A stretch of 10,161 bases of DNA from Gemmatimonadota bacterium (GCA_002712305.1 PATE01000061.1:1-10161), one strand, 5' to 3'; counted from the first letter of the stretch, positions 1 to 9,736 are shown. Translations and numbers: made by a program. Notes: generated from the letters alone by a model not told the origin.

Positions 1-1089
1 ACTGTCGGCTTCCTCAGTGGGTCAACGTATCGGGTCGTGCTCGATAGCGAATTGCGCGGCCCTCAGGCCGCCGGTGAGATCGATTGGAGCTTCCGCACCC
101 AGATCCCCGAGGTCGTGTCGACGACGCCGACAGATGCGGCGTCGATAACCTCGGACCCGCGTCGCATCAGCGTCACCTTCTCCAGTCCCGTCGACTCGGC
201 GGGCAGAGCGCCGCGGAATTTCCGCCTCGCCCGCGGGGGACGCCCCCTGGTGTTAGCGGCCAACGAGTTCCTCTACGATCCTGCCACCTTCACGGTGTCG
301 CTCCCGTCGGTCGATCTCGTATCGGGATCCGAATACACCGTCGCCGTCAGTGGTCGGATTGGTGGTCCTCAATCCGCCCTTACCGACCACCTCTTTACCT
401 TCAGGACTGAGATCCCCACCGTTTCTTCTACAGAGCCGGCTGATGGCGACGAAGGCATCGGTACCTCCCAGGGATTGATCAGCGTCGACTTCTCCAGTCC
501 CATCGCCAACCAGAGCGCCGAGGGTTTCTCCTTGCGCAGTCGATCTCTCGACGCGGCGGACACGACCTTCGTCGTTCTCCCGATTACGGGCTTTGGCGCC
601 GACTCGACGCAGACCCACATCAACTTTGCCCCAGAGGGCGGGTTCCGTGCCTTTACAGAGTATGAGGTCATCGTCGACCGCAGGGCCCTCGGACCGCTGG
701 CGGAAGAAGGCTTCTCCTGGCGCTTCTCCACGGCCCCCCGTCTGACGAGCATCAGCGACGGCGGCACGGTGAGCAATGCCGATGGCAGCATCCAACTCTA
801 TCTACCTCCGAATGCGCTTTCCGGCTCAGATGGCGAGATCGCCATCTCGCCCGTAACAGCTGACGACGGGGCTGGGCGTCCTGTGGCGTCGCAGCAGACG
901 CAGGTGGGCCCCGCTTATCGGATCGATGCAGGTTCGGCGACGCTCCGCAAGCCGGCGACGCTGACCATCGGTTATGACACGGACGACCTGGCGGGGCCAA
1001 CGCAGCGAGATTGGGGATCTTTGCTCTGGCCGATGGCGATGTGTGGACGCGCGTCGGAGGCACCGTCGATGAGGCGGCGCGGACAGTGA
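1..1089 (+). CDS. Tandem bacterial Ig-like (SbsA/Big_5-type) surface protein, partial at 5' end and frameshifted at 3' end
   Basis: The frame is open from base 1, so the true start lies upstream. The protein is built of tandem Ig-like domains of the SbsA/Big_5 type. Each ends in a matching strand (WSFRTQIP near nt 85-108, FTFRTEIP near 397-420, WRFSTAPR near 718-741) and opens with an S-x-x-P then VTFSSP or VDFSSP motif. The unit length is about 103-108 residues, and the first unit is cut by the window edge. After the last Ig unit, about nt 750-980, comes a ZU5-like segment (GSIQLYLPPNAL to PATLTIGYD). The reading frame then degrades: the last roughly 27 codons, from about nt 1009 to the stop at 1087-1089, look non-native, while the matching sequence continues in another frame from 1011. 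The likely role is a secreted or cell-surface structural or adhesive protein; the ligand is unknown. A signal peptide cannot be seen because the N-terminus is missing. It probably forms an operon with the two genes downstream. Confidence 0.8.
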   Translation, partial: TVGFLSGSTYRVVLDSELRGPQAAGEIDWSFRTQIPEVVSTTPTDAASITSDPRRISVTFSSPVDSAGRAPRNFRLARGGRPLVLAANEFLYDPATFTVSLPSVDLVSGSEYTVAVSGRIGGPQSALTDHLFTFRTEIPTVSSTEPADGDEGIGTSQGLISVDFSSPIANQSAEGFSLRSRSLDAADTTFVVLPITGFGADSTQTHINFAPEGGFRAFTEYEVIVDRRALGPLAEEGFSWRFSTAPRLTSISDGGTVSNADGSIQLYLPPNALSGSDGEIAISPVTADDGAGRPVASQQTQVGPAYRIDAGSATLRKPATLTIGYDTDDLAGPTQRDWGSLLWPMAMCGRASEAPSMRRRGQ

Positions 1090-1457
1090 CGACGACAGTG
1101 CCGGCCCTGGGAACCTTCGGTGTCTTCGAGGATACTGGTGCCGGCCTGGGGTCGTTGGCCGTCGCAGATGTCGACTGTCAGCCACGCGCCTTCACGCCCG
1201 CGGGCGGCCAATTGCGCGATCGGACTGATATCAGCTTCGACCTGAGTGCGCCGGCCGACGTGACCGTGCGAGTGTATAACGTCAGCGGCCGCGTCGAGCG
1301 AGTCCTGAGCCGTGATCGTGCCATGGCACCAGGACGAAATACCATAGTCTGGGACGGTCGAGATGACGACGCCGATGTCGTCGCCAGCGGCCTCTATGTC
1401 GTCGTCGTCAGTGTAGCTGGCGCGCAGGCGGAGAAGGTGGTGGCCGTTGTACGCTGA
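1011..1457 (+). CDS. C-terminal part of the same Ig-repeat protein, with FlgD-type Ig / sorting-like tail (out of frame)
   Basis: This frame continues the upstream Ig-repeat protein after an apparent one-base loss. Joining the frames at 1009-1011 gives TQRD-LGIFALADGDVWTR, followed by GGTVD and LGTFGVFED, which is the usual continuation of the ZU5-like segment. It is therefore not an independent gene: the TTG at 1011 is no credible start and there is no signal peptide. Residues about 54-148 of this fragment form a FlgD-type Ig domain (DISFDLSAPADVTVRVYNVSG, then IVWDGRDD and SGLYVVVVS), ending at the stop at 1455-1457. In FCB-group bacteria such a domain is the common last domain of exported proteins and resembles type IX C-terminal sorting domains. 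A role in export or surface anchoring is inferred from that. It ends 25 nt before the preferred start of the next gene. The alternatives are a real mutation that makes a pseudogene, or a sequencing error; the second seems likelier because codon use stays gene-like on both sides. Confidence 0.75.
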   Translation: MGIFALADGDVWTRVGGTVDEAARTVTTTVPALGTFGVFEDTGAGLGSLAVADVDCQPRAFTPAGGQLRDRTDISFDLSAPADVTVRVYNVSGRVERVLSRDRAMAPGRNTIVWDGRDDDADVVASGLYVVVVSVAGAQAEKVVAVVR

Positions 1458-1482
1458 GTGGAAACAGGCTGGATGCCGCCGG

Positions 1483-3018
1483 ATGGGTCGCCATGCGTTG
1501 GCTTTGATCGTGGGTAGCGTGCTCACAGCACCCGCCACTTGGGCGCAGCTGTCAGATGTGTCCAGTGCCAGTGGAGCCGACAATGCGGGTCTGTACAGCC
1601 CGGGTTTTGCGTGGGGTGACTACGACGCCGATGGCGATCTCGACCTCTACGTCACCAATTGGGCGACGGCTGTGTCCTTTCCATCGAACAAGCTGCTGAA
1701 CAACGGCGGCGACTCGACCTTCTCCGATGTGGCACCTGCCCTGGATGTCGACAACGATCAGAACAGCATCGGCGCCACGTGGGCTGACTACGACAACGAT
1801 GGTGATCTCGACCTGTATGTCGTGGATTTCTTCGCTCAGGACTATCTCTATCAAAGCCAGTCCAATGGCACTTCGTTCAGCGAGGTTGGCCGGCGTCAAG
1901 GATTGGTGGACCTGACCAAGGCCGGCAACTCGACCTCTGCCGCCTTCGGTGACGTAGACAACGACGGTTGGCTCGATCTGTACATCGGGAAGTTTTACCA
2001 CGACAACGAGTTATACGTCAGCCGTGGCGACGGTAGCGGCCCCGTCACCTTCGACCGTGTCGACGACCTGGGTGTCGGAGATCGACGTGATACGGCCGGT
2101 TTTGACTGGGTCGATATGGACAATGACGGTGATCTCGACCTCTACGTGGTCAATCGCGATCAGGAGAATGCCCTGTATCGCAATGACCTGGCCGATGGTG
2201 GCCCCTTCACCGAAGTGGCCTGCGCCCTCAGTGTGGCAAGCACCGAGATCGGCCAGGCTGGAGCGTGGGCCGACTACGACAACGATGGCGACCTCGACGT
2301 GTTCGTCGCCAATGTCGGTGCCAACGCGCTCTACCGGAACGACGGCGGCACGACTTTCGTCAATGTCGCTGCGGCGGCCGGTGTCCGTCAGAGTGGTTCT
2401 GGCTGGATCACGGCGGCAGCTGCCTGGGCAGACTACAACGGTGATGGTTTCTCAGACCTGTATCTGGCCAGCGGTGGAGACGAGCAGTTCCAGCCTGATC
2501 TGTTGTTTGTCGGAGGTGAAACGGGCGTCTTTGCCGATTCGACGGCCTCTGCCGGATTGCCGACATCCGTGACAGCTCAACTGTCTACGGGGTGGGCGGA
2601 CTTCGACGGCACAGGCACTCCCGATCTCTATGCGACGAATGGGTTTGGTCCCTACGGCCCGGGGAACCGGTTGTTCCGCAATGATCGCAGCCCGGATACG
2701 TTCCTCCGCGTGCTCGTTCGTGGCGTCGGCCCCTCCGCAGGCGGCGCAAATCTGGCCGCCATCGGTGCCCAGGTTCGATTGATCGACGCGGCCAGCAATG
2801 ACACGGTCGCCTACCAGCAGGTGCTTCCCAAGACGGCACTGATCCGGACCGTCGAATCGGACGGCGTCACGGCTGCCGCTGCTGAGATCATCTTTGGCGC
2901 ACCGGCGGGGCCCTACAACGTACACGTGAGGTTCCCCGGAAACGACGTACCGATCACGCGTGGCGTTTTTGTGGGTGGTGAGGTTGTCATCATCGACGAG
3001 GAAGTCTTCGGCGGATGA
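1483..3018 (+). CDS. Secreted FG-GAP/VCBS seven-bladed beta-propeller protein with ASPIC/UnbV-like C-terminus
   Basis: From ATG 1483 the product is 511 residues. It begins with a signal peptide (MGRHALALIVGSVLTAPATWA, cleavage before QLSD). An in-frame TTG at 1447 would add 12 residues ahead of this peptide and overlap the previous stop; ATG 1483 is preferred, although its ribosome site is weak. The body holds seven FG-GAP/VCBS units, each with a W/F-x-D-x-D-x-D-G-x-x-D calcium-type loop starting at residues about 46, 102, 157, 211, 264, 317 and 373. The 53-56-residue period fits one seven-bladed propeller. The last loop (DFDGTGTPD) lacks the third Asp, and the sixth has Asn at its second position. 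After about residue 405 comes an ASPIC/UnbV-like beta domain (FLRVLVRGVG, IGAQVRLID, HVRFPG). It should act outside the inner membrane, probably in surface binding; the ligand is unknown. Its stop overlaps the next start (ATGA), implying translational coupling. Confidence 0.88.
   Translation: MGRHALALIVGSVLTAPATWAQLSDVSSASGADNAGLYSPGFAWGDYDADGDLDLYVTNWATAVSFPSNKLLNNGGDSTFSDVAPALDVDNDQNSIGATWADYDNDGDLDLYVVDFFAQDYLYQSQSNGTSFSEVGRRQGLVDLTKAGNSTSAAFGDVDNDGWLDLYIGKFYHDNELYVSRGDGSGPVTFDRVDDLGVGDRRDTAGFDWVDMDNDGDLDLYVVNRDQENALYRNDLADGGPFTEVACALSVASTEIGQAGAWADYDNDGDLDVFVANVGANALYRNDGGTTFVNVAAAAGVRQSGSGWITAAAAWADYNGDGFSDLYLASGGDEQFQPDLLFVGGETGVFADSTASAGLPTSVTAQLSTGWADFDGTGTPDLYATNGFGPYGPGNRLFRNDRSPDTFLRVLVRGVGPSAGGANLAAIGAQVRLIDAASNDTVAYQQVLPKTALIRTVESDGVTAAAAEIIFGAPAGPYNVHVRFPGNDVPITRGVFVGGEVVIIDEEVFGG
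1618..2625 (+). repeat. Seven in-gene FG-GAP/calcium-loop coding repeats
   Basis: Seven coding repeats recur every 159-168 nt inside the propeller gene. Each encodes a D-x-D/N-x-D/T-G-x-x-D loop followed by a short hydrophobic strand such as LDLYVV. The copies at about 1779-1823 and 2263-2310 are close at DNA level (both read gactacgacaacgatgg in the core), while the sixth and seventh copies have drifted most. They are structural protein repeats, not mobile or intergenic repeats. Confidence 0.85.
2998..3004 (+). promoter_or_regulatory. Ribosome binding site for the barrel/transglutaminase/TPR gene
   Basis: GAGGAAG lies 10 nt before the ATG at 3015, inside the 3' end of the propeller gene. 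With the ATGA stop-start overlap it supports 3015 as the start and suggests coupled translation of the two proteins. Confidence 0.5.
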
Positions 3019-6000
3019 CACGAATCTTCGACACCCTCCGGCAAACGCGTGCCTCCACATGGGCAGCTACCCTGCTGATCGCCGGTAGTGCGTCCCTCGT
3101 CGAGGGTGCCGCATCGCGGCAGACGGATATTGGTGTGCGCGCCATCGGCATGGGCGGTGCCTATTCTGCTGTTGGGGCAGATGCGAGCGCCATCCGCTGG
3201 AATCCAGCGGCCATCGCCACACTACAGCGGCAGGAGATCCTGGGCACGTATACAGATCGCTATGGCCTGGGTTTGAACGAGTCCTATATGGGGTATGTCC
3301 TGCCGATTACTGATGCTCACGCCGTCGGCCTGGACTGGTTCCACCGGGGGTTCGACGACGTCAGCGGTGGTCTGGGCCTGAATTCCGGCCACAATCTGAT
3401 GAGCGTCGCCTATGGATATCGCAATGGGATCGCCGCCCTCAAGCCCTACATCGGCAATACCGCCATCGGTGGTACGCTGAAATACATCACCCAGGATGCC
3501 GATCTGGATGGGCGTTCGGTGATGTCTGCCTCCGGTCTGGGGTTCGATCTGGGTCTGCTGGCCCCCCTGCCCCGCGGATTCCGCCTGGGCGTGGCCATTC
3601 AGGATCTGGGCGGAACCTCCATCGAACACGATGGTGGGGTGAGCGAACAGATTTTTGATGCGCGTTGGCGAATTGGCATCGCTCACAAACCGGTCGAGGG
3701 CCTCACGCTGGCGGCCGACGTCGATGATCATCTGCGTCTGGGCGCAGAGTATTGGATCCGGGGTCAACTGGCCCTGCGTGCCGGGCTGCGCACGGTGTTG
3801 GATACACCCGAATCTCGAGGTGACGCGACGACACCGAGTGTTGGCTTTGGCGTGAAGTATCGTTTCGCTACGCTCGAATACGCCTACGAGCAGCATCCTG
3901 TCCTCGACGCGACGCACTACACGTCGTTGTCGCTGGCCTACAACTCGAAGATCGTCGAGATCAAGGACGCAACGGTCCGGCCAAATCCGATCTTCCGGTC
4001 TCTGTATCCACACTATCAGGAGTCGGAGTTCTTCGACGTCGTCCTGTCGAACTCCTCGCCACAGCCTCTGGATGTGACCGTGGGACTCATGCTCCCTCGG
4101 ACGATGAGTGTTCCCCATACGGAACGCGTCACCCTGCCTCCGCAGAGCACGGAGAAGTACTCTTTCTCCGTCACCTTCGATCCAGACCTGTTCAACGAAC
4201 CCGACGCGTACTACGACAACTTTGTTACACCGATCGTGTCGGTGACGTATCAGCGAAATCGGCGGGAACAACGACTCGAAAAACAACTCGAGCGCGTCTA
4301 CGTCGCCGGCAAGGGCAAACTTAGTTGGAATGTCCCGGGAATGGCGGCCGCCTTTGTGACCCCCGCCGATCTGGCTGTGGCCGGGTTCGCTCGGGGTTTG
4401 GTCTCCCGATACGACGACATCCTTTCGGGCAGATTCAATCACTCCAACCTGGGCAAAGCGGCGATCCTCTACGACGCGCTGGGTGTGTATCGATTTACCT
4501 ACCAGGCCGATCAGAAGACACCCTTCGCCAGTATCTCTGACGATCGAACCATCTTCGACACGGTTCAGTATCCCAGTGAGATGCTGTCAAAGCCCGAGGG
4601 AATCGACACGAAGATCGGCGACTGTGACGATCTGACCGTCCTCTATGCCTCGCTGCTGGAAAACCTGTCCATCGACACGGCCTTCCTCGAAGCCAATGAG
4701 CCGGGCAGAGGCCACATCTATCTGATGTTCGATGCGGGCATCCATCCAGATCAGGCGGAAGATCACTTCACCAGCCCTGCCGAGTACGTCGAGTGGGAAG
4801 GCCGAATCTGGATTCCCGTCGAAACGACCATGGTGGGTTTCACCTTTGGTGATGCGTGGCGACAGGGCGTGGGTGAATACAAGAGACTTGAGCCGCGAGG
4901 TCTGATCAATCAGGTCTACGTGCAGAAGTGGATGCAGACCTACAAGTCAGCTGTGTTGCCGGCCGTGGACATCGAGCTTCCCGGTGTGGTGGCCATCGAC
5001 AGCCTCATGATGCGGGATCTGGATTTCTTCGATCGCCGCACCGACGAGATCGCCTTAGGTTCGGTCACCTCCCTCGACACCCCGCAGGGCGCCTACGATG
5101 CAGGTGTCGCCTATCTGAGGGCCAACCACCTCGAGAAGGCGTCCGCCATGTTCCAACGAGCCCTCGGGATGGATGCGCGGCATGCGGATGCTCTCAATGC
5201 CCTGGGCGTCATCGACACCCGACGCGGCGACTACGACCTAGCCCTTGATCGCTATCGCGAGTCGCTGTCCTACGTAGAGGATAATGGCGTCCGCATGAAC
5301 ATCGCCCTCACCTACTATCTGATGGGCGATCGCGAACAGGCGGACATTTTCTACGAAGAGGTCGTTTCTCTCGACGGCACCTATGGGGAGCTGTTCGACT
5401 TCCTCGCCGGAGTGGGTGATGCGGCCGAATACTATGAGATTGGCGCCAGCTACCTGCGTCAACTGCGACTGGAACAGGCATCGGAACAGTTCGAACTGGC
5501 CATCGGCGCCGACCCCCAGTATGCAGACGCCATCAACGCGGCCGGGGTCGTCCACGCCCGACAGGGCCGCCCGGACGAAGCGCTTGCCGCCTTCGAACGC
5601 GCCTCTGAGATCGAGCCAGATCGACCTGGATTCCGGATCAATGTCGCCCTCGCCCATCATCTGTTGGGTGATTTCCAGACGGCTGACGTGGTTTACCGCC
5701 AGGTGGTCTCCGAGGACGAAACCTACGCCGGACTCTACGATTTCCTCGCTGCCACCGAGACGGCCGAGGAGAGCTACCGAATCGCCACTGGCTACATGCA
5801 GCAGAAGCTGTGGGGCAAGGCCCTCGAGCGCCTTGAGCGGGCCATCAAGGCGGGGACGACGGATGCCGACATCTTCAACGCCCGAGGCGTCGTGCTGACT
5901 CGACTGCTCCGTCATGATGAAGCCTTTGCCTCGTTCGAACGTGCCGAGTCGATGGATGCGAGCCAGGCCGGATATCGGCTGAATATGGCGATCGTCCGAC

Positions 6001-6095
6001 ATCTGCAGGGACGTCGCCATGAAGCGGCGGTCCTCTATCAGCAGGTTGTCGAGATGGAACCGGCCTATGAGGGGTATCTCGATCTGGGCCCATAG
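3015..6095 (+). CDS. PorV/PorQ-like outer-membrane barrel fused to a transglutaminase-like domain and TPR repeats
   Basis: This is a 1026-residue multidomain envelope protein. Residues 1 to about 33 are a signal peptide. Residues about 34-310 match the PorV/PorQ (UPF0164, FadL-related) barrel pattern: GVRAIGMGGAYSAVGADASA, IRWNPAA, many alternating short strands, and LRLGAEYWIRGQLALRAGLR before a final strand near SLSLAYN. Residues about 320-440 look like an Ig-type beta linker. Residues about 475-615 resemble a transglutaminase/papain-fold domain with GDCDDLTVLYASLLE (C537), GHIYLMFD (H567) and WIPVETT (E603, where Asp is usual), so a Cys-His-Glu triad is possible. Residues 689-1026 are three tandem TPR modules. 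The barrel should sit in the outer membrane; by analogy with PorV both ends would face the periplasm, placing the enzyme-like and TPR parts there. The substrate is unknown: cross-linking, proteolysis or a structural role are all open. It is translationally coupled to the propeller gene upstream. Confidence 0.85.
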   Translation: MTRIFDTLRQTRASTWAATLLIAGSASLVEGAASRQTDIGVRAIGMGGAYSAVGADASAIRWNPAAIATLQRQEILGTYTDRYGLGLNESYMGYVLPITDAHAVGLDWFHRGFDDVSGGLGLNSGHNLMSVAYGYRNGIAALKPYIGNTAIGGTLKYITQDADLDGRSVMSASGLGFDLGLLAPLPRGFRLGVAIQDLGGTSIEHDGGVSEQIFDARWRIGIAHKPVEGLTLAADVDDHLRLGAEYWIRGQLALRAGLRTVLDTPESRGDATTPSVGFGVKYRFATLEYAYEQHPVLDATHYTSLSLAYNSKIVEIKDATVRPNPIFRSLYPHYQESEFFDVVLSNSSPQPLDVTVGLMLPRTMSVPHTERVTLPPQSTEKYSFSVTFDPDLFNEPDAYYDNFVTPIVSVTYQRNRREQRLEKQLERVYVAGKGKLSWNVPGMAAAFVTPADLAVAGFARGLVSRYDDILSGRFNHSNLGKAAILYDALGVYRFTYQADQKTPFASISDDRTIFDTVQYPSEMLSKPEGIDTKIGDCDDLTVLYASLLENLSIDTAFLEANEPGRGHIYLMFDAGIHPDQAEDHFTSPAEYVEWEGRIWIPVETTMVGFTFGDAWRQGVGEYKRLEPRGLINQVYVQKWMQTYKSAVLPAVDIELPGVVAIDSLMMRDLDFFDRRTDEIALGSVTSLDTPQGAYDAGVAYLRANHLEKASAMFQRALGMDARHADALNALGVIDTRRGDYDLALDRYRESLSYVEDNGVRMNIALTYYLMGDREQADIFYEEVVSLDGTYGELFDFLAGVGDAAEYYEIGASYLRQLRLEQASEQFELAIGADPQYADAINAAGVVHARQGRPDEALAAFERASEIEPDRPGFRINVALAHHLLGDFQTADVVYRQVVSEDETYAGLYDFLAATETAEESYRIATGYMQQKLWGKALERLERAIKAGTTDADIFNARGVVLTRLLRHDEAFASFERAESMDASQAGYRLNMAIVRHLQGRRHEAAVLYQQVVEMEPAYEGYLDLGP
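5079..6092 (+). repeat. Three tandem 113-114-residue TPR modules
   Basis: The C-terminal third of the barrel fusion consists of three consecutive modules at about 5079-5414, 5415-5753 and 5754-6092. Each has about three TPR hairpins in the same order: a first hairpin with Y-x-x-x-x-x-Y-L/M, a second with NALGVIDTRRGDY, NAAGVVHARQGRP or NARGVVLTRLLRH, and a third starting MNIAL, INVAL or LNMAI. Modules one and two close with YGELFDFLA and YAGLYDFLA, and the third with YEGYLDLGP at the stop. Anchor tyrosines at residues 700, 813 and 927 give periods of 113 and 114. The pattern indicates duplication of a whole three-TPR block. Confidence 0.85.
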
Positions 6096-6282
6096 GCCGT
6101 TCCAACAAAAGAATCGGAATTGGGCGACGTGATCTGTATCATACTTATGGATCCTGAGATTGCCGATCTTTTGTGTAGACAGTGAGCGAAATGAGGTCTG
6201 GCCGTTGCCAGGCATTCGCCCTTGAGATGGATCGAAAATCAACTCCACGGGCGGTTGATCCCCCGAGTGGGAGGAGAGAACC
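6096..6282 (+). other. Intergenic leader region before the small secreted TPR gene
   Basis: This 187-bp gap probably carries the promoter and 5' leader of the next gene, because that gene has its own strong ribosome site and terminator. No -35/-10 pair of convincing match and spacing was found. A short hairpin, CTGGC-cgtt-GCCAG, lies at 6198-6211. A possible weak stem (AGAT/ATCT followed by TTTT) near 6157-6172 is too short to call a terminator for the upstream operon. Confidence 0.35.
6269..6276 (+). promoter_or_regulatory. Strong Shine-Dalgarno for the small secreted TPR gene
   Basis: GGGAGGAG stands 6 nt before ATG 6283. It is the best ribosome site in the window and fixes the start of the following gene. 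Confidence 0.8.
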
Positions 6283-6804
6283 ATGAAACTGACGTTGAAA
6301 CTGCTGACACTGGCTCTGATGACGGCCCTGCTTGTCGTGCCTGTCATGGCCCAGGAGGATGAGCAGGCTGCAACTGCCACCTCCACTGAGGTAGCTGGCT
6401 CTGACGAAGAGCTTGATGACGAGTGGCTGAACACGGTGTGGACTCAAGTCGACGACATGGTCAAGGAAGAGGAGCACAAACTGCAGGAGACGGTCACCGT
6501 CGCCGGCGTGCGTGGCGCTGAGGCTGAAGACTCCATCCTTGATCGCCTCTACTACAAGGGGGCCAAGCGGTATCCGAGCCAGGACAAGCTGAACAAGGCC
6601 ATTGAAACTCTGCGCGAGGCACTGGCCGCCGCACCGCGCGGCGAGAATGCTCCCATGCAGAAGTATTTCATCGCCCAGTGTTATGAGAAGCTCGGCCGGA
6701 CCAGCGACGCCCGGACATACTACGGTCACGTCACCAAGGATCATCCCAATACGACGTGGTCGAAGAAGGCCCAGGCTGATCTGGACAGACTGACGACCCA
6801 GTAG
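6283..6804 (+). CDS. Small secreted/periplasmic protein with a C-terminal TPR (CpoB/BamD-like repeat)
   Basis: The product has 173 residues. It starts with a clear signal peptide (MKLTLKLLTLALMTALLVVP then VMA, cleavage before QEDE at about residue 24). A short acidic, low-complexity stretch (about 24-50, rich in Glu, Asp, Ala and Thr) follows, then a helical segment with VWTQVDDMVKEEEHKLQETV. The C-terminal half (about 95-170) holds a TPR-like pair: KLNKAIETLREALAAAP, then KYFIAQCYEKLGRTSDARTY, then DHPNTTWSKKAQADLDRL. The final pattern is the one seen in CpoB/YbgF and BamD repeats. It is too short to be either full protein, so no specific function is assigned; a periplasmic adaptor or scaffold is the likeliest role. 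Its strong ribosome site and the immediate intrinsic terminator suggest an independently and perhaps well expressed single-gene unit. Confidence 0.85.
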   Translation: MKLTLKLLTLALMTALLVVPVMAQEDEQAATATSTEVAGSDEELDDEWLNTVWTQVDDMVKEEEHKLQETVTVAGVRGAEAEDSILDRLYYKGAKRYPSQDKLNKAIETLREALAAAPRGENAPMQKYFIAQCYEKLGRTSDARTYYGHVTKDHPNTTWSKKAQADLDRLTTQ

Positions 6805-6847
6805 TCAAGACCGCCACGGCTCGCCCTGGCGATTGATTGGGCAACTG

Positions 6848-6884
6848 AAAGGGAGGAGTGGCCCCCGGCCACCCCTCCTTTTTC
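6848..6884 (+). terminator. Rho-independent terminator
   Basis: The stem pairs GTGGCC (6858-6863) with GGCCAC (6867-6872) across a CCC loop. It extends through one A-C mismatch to GGAGG/CCTCC, a G-T pair and AAA/TTT, and runs into TTTTT at 6879-6883. It lies about 45 nt after the stop of the secreted TPR gene and before the cyclase start, so it ends that transcript. Confidence 0.92.
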
Positions 6885-6934
6885 TATATTTCCACACCTG
6901 ACCCGTCACCCATTCCCGATTTCCGATCGCACTC

Positions 6935-9736
6935 ATGGCTGAAGCGGGTAACACCGAAGAACGTATCCAGCTGATCCTCGGTCCCGTCGTGGGCCTGCTC
7001 ATCTTCCTGTTCTCCTTGACGGAGATCTACGAGCGGGCGGAACTGGTGACCTACGACTCGCGCTTCAACGTGCGCAATTCACTGTTCGGTCCACCGCCCA
7101 TGAATCCCAATCTGGGCACCATCGACATCGATCTGGAAAGCATCGAGGCCGAGGGACGCTACCAGGATTGGACACGAGATAAGTACACCGAGGTCGTGCG
7201 TCTGCTGGACGACTATGGAGCGCGGCTGGTCGGATTCGATGTGTTCTTCGTAGAGCCGTCGACGAATCTGGTCTCGGCCGATCAGATTCAGGCACTCAGC
7301 CGAATCGACGAAAAGAGTATCAACGACCTGCTGGCGCGTTCCGACCACGATGAACTGTTCCGCCAGACGATTCTCGACGCAGGGAATGTGTATCTGGGCC
7401 AGACGATCGTCGTGCCCCATGGCGAGCTGAGTGCCGAGGAGATCCAGAAACATCTCGAGCCACTGAGTGAGGACAAGCAGAGAGCCCTCGACGCGATACG
7501 GGGGCGCTCACCGGGTCTGGCCAAGGATGCGCAGAACACCGTGTGGCGAGGGTACGACTTCGATCCGCCCTTGATGTCTCTTCGCGATGCGGCTCGCGGT
7601 TTTGCCTACGCTCAGACGGTACCCGATGTAGATGGCGTCCGACGACGGTTCCCTCTGGTCTACCGGTATGAGGATGTCCTGTTCCCGTCCCTGGCCCTGG
7701 CCATGGCTGCCGATGTTTTGCAGGTCCCGATCAAGGACATCGTCGTTGAACCGGGCGATCACATTCTTCTTCCTGGGGCAAAGCTGCTCACCGGGGGTGT
7801 CGAGGACGTTGAGATCCCCATCGACCGCTTCGGCAATATGCACGTCAACTGGGCGGGTCGGTGGGAGAATACGTTTACCCACTATCCCCATTTCACGATC
7901 CGTGAAGCCGCCTGGCGCCAGGATCGCCAGTCCCTGCTCGATGACATGAAGGCGCGAGTTGCGGCGGATCCCGCCCTGCGAAATCCGCGAGCACTTCTGA
8001 AGGCGCTGACACAGGCTGGCTATGGCGATCGCGATTTGCTGCTGACGGCATTGCGCGCCTACCTCGCGTCGTCAGAGATGGAGAGCGCCCTGCGAGCCAA
8101 TGCAGATATCACGGCGACGGACTTCTGGAAGAAGAAGGGCATCGCCGAACCGACCGAGACGCTGTCGCTGATCTTCGAAAAGGTGCAGCTTACAAATGCG
8201 GCGGCGGCCCTGATCGAGAGCGACCCAGGCATCGCCTTCGAAGGGCTGCAGGGAAGCTTCCCGGATGCGGATCAGGGCGAGTTGCGTCAGAGCGAATACT
8301 ACGTGCGTTCCGTGCTGGCCGATGGCGTGGTGCCCGACAGCGCTCGCCCCCTGTATTTCTATCCCTTTCAGAAATACCAACCCCGCAATGGCGCTTCGGC
8401 CTTCGTGAGCCCGGATGACGTTGAGGGCAAGATCCTGTTCTATGGACTCACCGCACCAGGCACAACCGACCTCAATGTCACGCCCGTGCAGGGAAGTTAT
8501 CCCATGGTCGGAATCTACCCGAACGTGCTGAATACGATTCTCGAGGGAATCTTCATTCAGCGCATGCCAGCCTGGAGCGATGCGTTGCTCATGTTCGCCC
8601 TGGGCATGTTGCTGTCCCTCGTCGTACCACGGATGCGCGTGCTGGCTGGGGCAGGCGTCGTTTTAGGCATCGTCATTCTGTATTCAGCGATCGCTTTCTT
8701 CAGCTTCACTCACGCGGGCTGGTGGCTCGAGTTCGTGGCGCCCCTCATGACCCTCGTCGTCGGCTATCTGGTACTCACCATTTACGGATACATCATCAAG
8801 GAGAAGGAGAAGGAGTTCGTGCAGGGCGCCTTCGGTCACTACCTGTCGCCTGCCGTCGTCGACCAGATCATGACGAATCCTGACATGATCGGGCAACTCG
8901 GTGGTGAAGAGCGGGTCATGACGGCGTTCTTCTCGGACATTGCCAGTTTCTCCACGATCTCCGAATGCCTCACACCCGCCGAATTGGTGAATTTCATCAA
9001 CGAGTATCTGTCGGATATGTGCGACATCATCGAGAAAGCCGGCGGCACCATCGACAAATTCGAAGGTGATGCCATTGTCGCATTCTTCGGCGCTCCCCTG
9101 TACTACGATGATCATGCGGTCCGTGGCTGCATGTCGTGTATCGATCAGCAGCGGGCGATGACGCAGTTGCGCGAGCGATGGCGGGTTGACGGGGCGCTGC
9201 CATCGGCCCTGGCTGACCTGCGCGACCGCTGGGACCAACAGGGTCGCCCCTTCTGCCACGTTCGGATCGGGCTGACTGCCGGACCGATGGTGGTGGGCAA
9301 CATGGGATCGCGCACGCGCACAGACTATACCATGATGGGAGATACGGTGAATCTTGCCGCGCGCTTCGAGTCGGGGCAGAAGATCTACGGTACGGGCATC
9401 ATGGTGAATGAAGCGATCTACGATCAGGTAAAAGACCTGGTAGAGGGTCGGCGTCTCGACTATATCCAGGTCATGGGCAAAGAAGAGCCGGCCACAGCAT
9501 ATGAGATTCTCGAACGCAAGGGCGAGATCTCAAGCGAACAGTCCGACTTGCTCGCGTTGTATCATCAAGGGCTCGAGTTATACGATCGTTTTGAGTTTGC
9601 TGAGGCCAAGACCCGATTCGAAGAGGCGCTGAAGGTCCTGCCCGACGATGGACCGAGTGCGCTGTATGCGGATCGGTGTGAAGACTACGCGGAGAATCCG
9701 CCTGAGGACCTGGTCTTCCAGGCCGACAGCAAGTGA
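6935..9736 (+). CDS. CHASE2-sensor class III adenylate cyclase with C-terminal TPR
   Basis: This 933-residue inner-membrane receptor is predicted to make cAMP from ATP. One N-terminal transmembrane helix (about 12-31) precedes a periplasmic CHASE2 domain (about 35-540): GTIDIDLESIEAEG, GARLVGFDVFFVEPS, DVDGVRRRFPLVYRYED, NWAG, GKILFYGLTAPGTTDL, GIYPNVLNTIL. Three helices follow (about 548-563, 569-590, 597-620). The catalytic domain (about 658-855) has both metal aspartates (D668 in FFSDIASFS, D712 in KFEGDAIVAFFGAP), the ATP-selecting pair K708 and D797 (TDYTMMGD), and the transition-state pair N806 and R810 (VNLAAR). All key residues for an active adenylate, not guanylate, cyclase are therefore present. 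A TPR-like tail follows (about 874-920, HQGLELYDRFEFAEAKTRFE). CHASE2 carries about 155 extra residues between NWAG (305) and GKIL (498). ATG 6935 has no clear ribosome site, yet its position just before the first helix supports it. Confidence 0.93.
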   Translation: MAEAGNTEERIQLILGPVVGLLIFLFSLTEIYERAELVTYDSRFNVRNSLFGPPPMNPNLGTIDIDLESIEAEGRYQDWTRDKYTEVVRLLDDYGARLVGFDVFFVEPSTNLVSADQIQALSRIDEKSINDLLARSDHDELFRQTILDAGNVYLGQTIVVPHGELSAEEIQKHLEPLSEDKQRALDAIRGRSPGLAKDAQNTVWRGYDFDPPLMSLRDAARGFAYAQTVPDVDGVRRRFPLVYRYEDVLFPSLALAMAADVLQVPIKDIVVEPGDHILLPGAKLLTGGVEDVEIPIDRFGNMHVNWAGRWENTFTHYPHFTIREAAWRQDRQSLLDDMKARVAADPALRNPRALLKALTQAGYGDRDLLLTALRAYLASSEMESALRANADITATDFWKKKGIAEPTETLSLIFEKVQLTNAAAALIESDPGIAFEGLQGSFPDADQGELRQSEYYVRSVLADGVVPDSARPLYFYPFQKYQPRNGASAFVSPDDVEGKILFYGLTAPGTTDLNVTPVQGSYPMVGIYPNVLNTILEGIFIQRMPAWSDALLMFALGMLLSLVVPRMRVLAGAGVVLGIVILYSAIAFFSFTHAGWWLEFVAPLMTLVVGYLVLTIYGYIIKEKEKEFVQGAFGHYLSPAVVDQIMTNPDMIGQLGGEERVMTAFFSDIASFSTISECLTPAELVNFINEYLSDMCDIIEKAGGTIDKFEGDAIVAFFGAPLYYDDHAVRGCMSCIDQQRAMTQLRERWRVDGALPSALADLRDRWDQQGRPFCHVRIGLTAGPMVVGNMGSRTRTDYTMMGDTVNLAARFESGQKIYGTGIMVNEAIYDQVKDLVEGRRLDYIQVMGKEEPATAYEILERKGEISSEQSDLLALYHQGLELYDRFEFAEAKTRFEEALKVLPDDGPSALYADRCEDYAENPPEDLVFQADSK

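Follow-up and report, generated by a model that had tools for sequence, protein, structure and literature searches.

Gene organization of the locus

The stretch of DNA analyzed here, referred to as the window, comprises 10,161 nucleotides from a genome deposited as a Gemmatimonadota bacterium (GCA_002712305.1 PATE01000061.1:1-10161). On its plus strand it carries, in this order, a giant FG-GAP/Big_5 gene, an FG-GAP repeat gene, a gene for a multidomain fusion protein, a gene for a small exported TPR protein, and a gene for a CHASE2-class III cyclase. The fusion gene extends over 3015-6095 and encodes 1,026 amino acids; a first-pass annotation had reported an ORF at this position with the residues C537, H567, and E603, and translation by program confirms the coordinates, length, and residue numbers exactly. 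C537 is the sole Cys of the protein. Residues 1-32 (3015-3110) form a predicted signal peptide, with a hydrophobic N terminus that is modeled as a helix over residues 2-25 and followed by disorder. The ATG of the fusion gene overlaps the stop codon of the preceding FG-GAP ORF by 4 bases (ATGA), an arrangement resembling that of translationally coupled genes.

Only the 3' end of the giant gene is contained in the window (1-1457, Big_5 by Pfam). Its product ends in a FlgD_ig or T9SS type A CTD-like C terminus (encoded at about 1224-1436), which scores 20.8 to 21.4 bits with the TIGR04183 CTD model, against a cutoff of 23 bits. The ORF changes frame near 993 (993-1089), from frame 1 to frame 3. 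The counterpart in a close relative, L035, is continuous (2516-8350, 1,944 amino acids), and the frame change is probably due to an indel introduced into the MAG by sequencing or assembly. The FG-GAP repeat gene (1447-3018; Pfam FG-GAP_3, E value of 1.4e-50) is a conserved neighbor, and such a gene adjoins most Latescibacterota-type loci.

Downstream of the fusion gene, the small exported TPR protein (6283-6804; Pfam and NCBIfam TPR, YbgF-like) is also conserved, with an adjacent homolog in most loci of the main clade. The gene at 6935-9736 encodes a receptor with a CHASE2 domain (PF05226, E value of 2.4e-36), a class III adenylate/guanylate cyclase domain (Guanylate_cyc, E value of 4.1e-16), and a C-terminal TPR region. 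The CHASE2 region lies between transmembrane-like segments at residues 9-32 and 545-622, and inspection by eye indicated that both metal-binding Asp positions and the N-x-x-x-R motif of the cyclase are kept. PADLOC matches to Pycsar cyclases were discarded as evidence of a defense function, as they reflect class III cyclase homology.

The gene order in L035, whose contig is 154 kb in length, is identical to that in the window, and the locus there runs on into CpoB-like and YfiO-like TPR genes. Because the same order is found in L035 and in many independent genomes, we reject the possibility that the fusion is an assembly chimera or a product of chance. Phage, plasmid, and viral-contig searches with the fusion locus gave zero matches, and the locus is therefore not phage- or plasmid-borne within the contigs searched. 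SprA is present in 25 of 25 relatives as well as in the source genome, which also encodes 46 T9SS type A CTDs above the TIGR04183 cutoff. The source organism, a member of a Latescibacterota-like lineage, thus has a T9SS outside the Bacteroidota.

Domain architecture of the fusion protein

An AlphaFold2 model of the full chain, built on a 45-sequence alignment (mean pLDDT of 87.2, pTM of 0.57), displays barrel strands followed by an Ig-like sandwich, a domain of mixed alpha/beta structure, and finally the TPR array, and it supports every domain described below. The barrel occupies residues 34-310 (3114-3944), with about 14 modeled strands within 73-309. The NCBIfam model PorV_fam (NF033709) matches residues 40-307 with an E value of 5.4e-23 and a score of 82 to 88 bits (82.1 in the NCBIfam search), just under the cutoff of 90 bits. 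All 32 homologous barrels that were tested match the same model, some of them above the cutoff (L087 and L092). A profile made from 32 aligned barrels detected the solved PorV structure 6h3i (E value of 4.5e-21) in two segments that together cover almost the full length of the barrel. The score with the T9SS PorV equivalog (NF033710) is 29.9 bits, versus a cutoff of 250 bits. By these profile scores, the barrel is a member of the PorV/PorQ family and not PorV itself.

To our knowledge, the known PorV/PorQ proteins are single barrels. The fusion protein is homologous to PorV 6h3i over nearly the entire barrel but continues for about 700 residues past the last strand. In PorV/FadL barrels, both ends of the chain are in the periplasm. 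Because of this topology and the modeled strand count, the Ig-like, transglutaminase-fold, and TPR regions should be periplasmic rather than located outside the cell.

Among the best 50 Foldseek matches listed for the full model, TPR and other helical-repeat proteins were found throughout, and the region between the barrel and the TPRs was therefore predicted and searched alone. The model of residues 316-640 has a mean pLDDT of 93.1 and a pTM of 0.89. With VIA-align, the Ig-like beta-sandwich (residues 316-434; 3960-4316) resembles the GH2 beta-sandwich 8u01 (Z of 10.4, 3.5 Å over 98 residues). Residues 437-640 (4323-4934), designated TGL here, match human TG2, TG3, and FXIII and yeast PNGase, with Z values of 8.7 to 10.2, along with two putative bacterial cysteine proteases (3kd4 and 3isr); the matches to the TGL part have deviations of 3.1 to 4.1 Å over 131 to 173 residues. 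As modeled, residues 437-640 have a papain-like transglutaminase fold. LapG/BTLCP structures are absent among the VIA-align rows, which is still compatible with a shared fold.

Similarity at the level of sequence is weak. A Pfam search of the window protein found nothing over residues 320-640, and Transglut_core (PF01841) and DUF553 (PF04473) each give weak matches in 37 of 48 homologous TGL domains. PF06035 (LapG/BTLCP) gave no match among these 48 domains at an E value of 0.1. When the TGL alignment was used as a profile against the PDB, no match was obtained at an E value of 10, and the fold is therefore demonstrated by structure. The weak Pfam matches identify the TGL domain as a remote member of the transglutaminase-like superfamily, which includes TG2, FXIII, and PNGase; it shares with them the fold and the Cys-then-His order but differs in having its own Ig-like domain in front. 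The TPR array covers residues 690-1018 (5082-6068), with modeled helix pairs and matches to Pfam TPR families at 690-1020 (TPR_2, E value of 2.3e-27).

The domain series that the first-pass annotation had read from the sequence, namely, a barrel-like N terminus at about 34-310, an Ig-like linker, a papain fold, and a TPR array of about 340 residues, therefore stands, with the profile searches identifying the N-terminal part as PorV-like. Only the extent given for the papain fold (470-620) has to be revised, to about 437-640. ORF 3015-6095 encodes a genuine fusion in which a barrel is followed by Ig-like, transglutaminase-fold, and TPR regions.

Conservation of the Cys-His-Glu triad

The predicted nucleophile C537 (4623-4625) lies in the sequence GDCDD and is invariant in the homolog alignments A1, A4, A5, and A6. 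The predicted catalytic His is H567 (4713-4715), and the third triad position is E603 (4821-4823), within the motif W-x-P-x-E-x-T. A pattern-free search of 60 relatives detected the module in 23 genomes, from which 24 barrel fusions were aligned; all three residues are invariant in this alignment. A scan of named genomes provided 78 loci. In the alignment of 45 barrel fusions, with identities down to about 24%, GDCDD, H567, E603, and T605 are all invariant, and the Cys, His, and Glu are kept in 21 of 21 further relatives with other N termini, so that the triad is found in 66 of 66 homologs checked. As one of the patterns used for the named genomes contained GDCDD, the conservation of C537 is partly biased in that set, with H567 and E603 unaffected; the 24 fusions of the pattern-free set are free of this bias.

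The usual third residue of the triad is Asp, whereas this family has an invariant Glu. The first-pass annotation had regarded activity as uncertain on account of this Glu, a doubt that the conservation of E603 does not justify. Because the triad is present in the 45 barrel fusions and the 21 relatives, the alignments identify Glu at this position as the rule of the family and not as decay, and loss of activity through the Glu substitution was rejected as an explanation. The TGL domain, with its Cys-His-Glu triad, is probably protease-like.

Such conservation also bears on the possibility that the TGL domain has no catalytic activity and serves as a binding fold in which the triad is kept for structure. 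The TGL sequence matches no solved enzyme, and TGL-fold proteins of other families, such as XPC/Rad4, have lost activity. Invariance of Cys, His, and Glu in 66 homologs, at identities as low as about 24%, would be unusual for a dead site, and we regard an inert domain as rather unlikely.

Distribution and other architectures of the Ig-TGL module

The barrel fusion, with the same domain order, recurs across several phyla: Latescibacterota and their relatives, Neomarinimicrobiota, KSB1, Zixibacteria, Calditrichota, Bacteroidota, and Spirochaetota. Elsewhere, the Ig-TGL(-TPR) module is found behind Reg_prop/Y_Y_Y propellers or NHL propellers, behind an nSTAND2 NTPase, and, in spirochetes, behind about 200 residues without domain assignment. 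A tree of the module requires three changes between the barrel and other N termini, with the starred branches forcing two; the module has therefore moved between fusion partners. The nSTAND2 NTPase was observed N-terminal to the Ig-TGL module at L093 (8609-11437); nSTAND proteins are common in defense. At L102 (6228-9323) and related spirochete loci, the TGL gene adjoins a gene whose product contains LVIVD repeats and fn3 and weakly matches the PorZ propeller.

The Ig-TGL module of the homologs also matches positions 11-319 of the model for the anti-phage protein ProA (NF058533), with a best E value of 1.1e-17 in L092; the match was found at L092 (6551-9109) and at spirochete loci. The resemblance is confined to the N terminus of ProA: only positions 11-319 of 1,903 are shared, the scores are far under the cutoff of 1,500 bits, and ProA, unlike the fusion protein, is without a barrel. 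A literature search found no paper explaining the name ProA.

Linkage to CHASE2 receptors

In the named genomes, a CHASE2 gene is present on the same strand in 35 of the 35 main-clade loci whose contigs reach far enough; the other 10 main-clade loci end before the place where it is expected. The CHASE2 gene is 0.5 to 1.3 kb downstream of the fusion gene in Latescibacterota, KSB1, and Zixibacteria and 4 to 6 kb upstream in Neomarinimicrobiota. In the latter phylum, a secretin may lie between CHASE2 and the fusion; at L058 (3904-5701) and similar loci, a secretin gene and a T2SSB-like gene are located between the CHASE2 cyclase gene and the giant FG-GAP gene. The linkage in the main clade may go back to a single ancestral arrangement and thus not represent 35 independent events.

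The two genes also occur together at the level of genomes. Of the 47 genomes compared from the nearest families, 20 of the 20 with the full fusion also have CHASE2, 26 have neither, and 1 has CHASE2 alone (Fisher P value of 2e-12, not corrected for kinship). In the phylum sample, 19 of 21 fusion genes have CHASE2 on the same contig, 1.5 to 3.1 kb from the probed segment.

The output domain of the CHASE2 protein changes among the more distant barrel fusions, where it is a SpoIIE phosphatase (L085), a sigma-54 AAA activator (L089 and L097), or a histidine kinase, near which an NtrC-type regulator is encoded (L092). Propeller-type versions of TGL from Nitrosomonadales and a deltaproteobacterium adjoin CHASE2 genes as well: at L098, a TGL module fused to an NHL propeller is next to a CHASE2 cyclase, and L101 and L104 are of the same kind. 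No CHASE2 was found at three distant barrel fusions with long flanks (L078, L079, and L081) or at the loci of most nonbarrel relatives, including most spirochete versions. The module therefore also has other partners. Directly downstream of two of these CHASE2-less barrel-TGL fusions, at L079 (12421-15849) and L081 (12442-15894), is a gene for a large protein of a single family, the L079 copy of which has weak WD40 matches, a Big_7 domain, and a caspase (C14) domain.

A candidate input for CHASE2 receptors

Because the fusion gene usually lies beside a gene for a CHASE2 receptor whose output end varies, the gene neighborhood, from which the pairing is drawn, suggests that the fusion protein feeds envelope signals to this receptor. 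The first-pass annotation had looked for partners among the proteins encoded upstream. Processing or fixing of these proteins is a possible, putative role of the fusion; its most constant partner is the CHASE2 receptor, encoded downstream in the window.

We favor, with a probability of about 0.5, the reading that the fusion protein is an outer-membrane-tethered periplasmic relay passing the state of a surface protein to CHASE2. The PorV-family barrel would sit in the outer membrane, where it would probably hold or monitor the giant FG-GAP/Big_5 surface protein, and the Ig-like, transglutaminase-fold, and TPR domains would hang in the periplasm. There, these domains would bind to the CHASE2 domain in the periplasm or act upon it, with or without the small TPR protein as an intermediary. 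The output of the CHASE2 protein, which in the window would be a cyclic nucleotide, would thereby change with the state of the surface protein, the information being passed on either through binding or through a cysteine-dependent enzymatic step. This reading also draws on the T9SS of the source genome, a system in which PorV-family barrels collect cargo at the outer membrane, and on the CTD-like end of the giant protein, the score of which is just under the cutoff.

Another explanation is that the fusion protein is a dedicated T9SS-type shuttle or anchor, whose barrel would receive the giant FG-GAP/Big_5 protein as cargo and whose TGL domain would trim or cross-link cargo or partners in the periplasm, with CHASE2 merely sharing the locus. 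The cargo-like giant gene with its CTD-like end adjoins the fusion gene, the source genome has SprA and many CTDs, and at L082 a giant Ig/FG-GAP gene is beside the fusion, with no CHASE2 in the available sequence. In T9SS, PorV collects type A cargo, and the genes for type B shuttles are frequently found next to those for their cargo, such linkage being common among specialized shuttles (PMC12618676). PorV, however, handles cargo at the outer face, whereas the TGL part of the fusion should be periplasmic, and a bystander role for CHASE2 is difficult to reconcile with its presence in all main-clade loci that could be tested and with its retention outside this clade, in combination with four kinds of output. 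We consider a shuttle unlikely, although it is the strongest of the alternatives.

LapD controls LapG and LapA (PMC3032545), and a Lap-like inside-out circuit, in which the CHASE2 protein would control a periplasmic TGL protease that releases a surface protein, has analogous parts (a TGL-fold periplasmic enzyme, an inner-membrane nucleotide protein, and a giant surface protein) but is improbable, as the inner-membrane partner here synthesizes a nucleotide instead of binding one (in other loci it is a kinase, a phosphatase, or an AAA activator), which fits an outside-in flow, and as PF06035 matches 0 of 48 TGL domains. Unlike LapG, which is soluble and has a c-di-GMP receptor as its binding partner, the enzyme-like part of the fusion is tethered to a barrel, and its candidate partner is a receptor with an output domain. 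The Lap system is thus the closest in logic, not in membership.

CHASE2 genes beside genes for exported partners are already known. In the BiofilmReg operon, a LysM/FecR gene is located beside a CHASE2 histidine kinase gene, and the cue for CHASE2 was called unknown (PMC5192318). As in the fusion locus, an exported partner stands beside a CHASE2 receptor with a variable cytoplasmic part, but that partner is a peptidoglycan-binding FecR protein and not an outer-membrane TGL fusion. Magnetotactic bacteria have MtxA, which is exported and contains Ig-like and TPR domains and whose gene is followed by a CHASE2-adenylate cyclase gene (PMC4439547); MtxA shares these features with the fusion protein but is without a barrel, and no TGL domain has been reported in it. 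Our literature search, outside of which lay preprints and most subscription papers, found no description of a PorV-TGL(-TPR) fusion and nothing relevant on CHASE2 and transglutaminase together.

A partner gene that is kept with CHASE2 across phyla despite the change of output is a concrete candidate for the CHASE2 input. This raises the possibility, which we put forward tentatively, of an undescribed type of trans-envelope signaling in which a barrel with a periplasmic cysteine-enzyme/TPR platform would be the input of CHASE2 receptors with interchangeable outputs, and CHASE2 would read the state of an outer-membrane protein, perhaps a proteolytic event, and not a small molecule. If this is true, information would pass from a T9SS-type barrel in the outer membrane into signaling through cyclic nucleotides, kinases, or sigma-54, and the route would serve large uncultured phyla. 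Two public MAG names associated with these loci look wrong: the genome of L043, named "Gemmatimonas phototrophica," carries a Latescibacterota-type locus, and that of L086, named "Alphaproteobacteria," carries a Neomarinimicrobiota-type locus.
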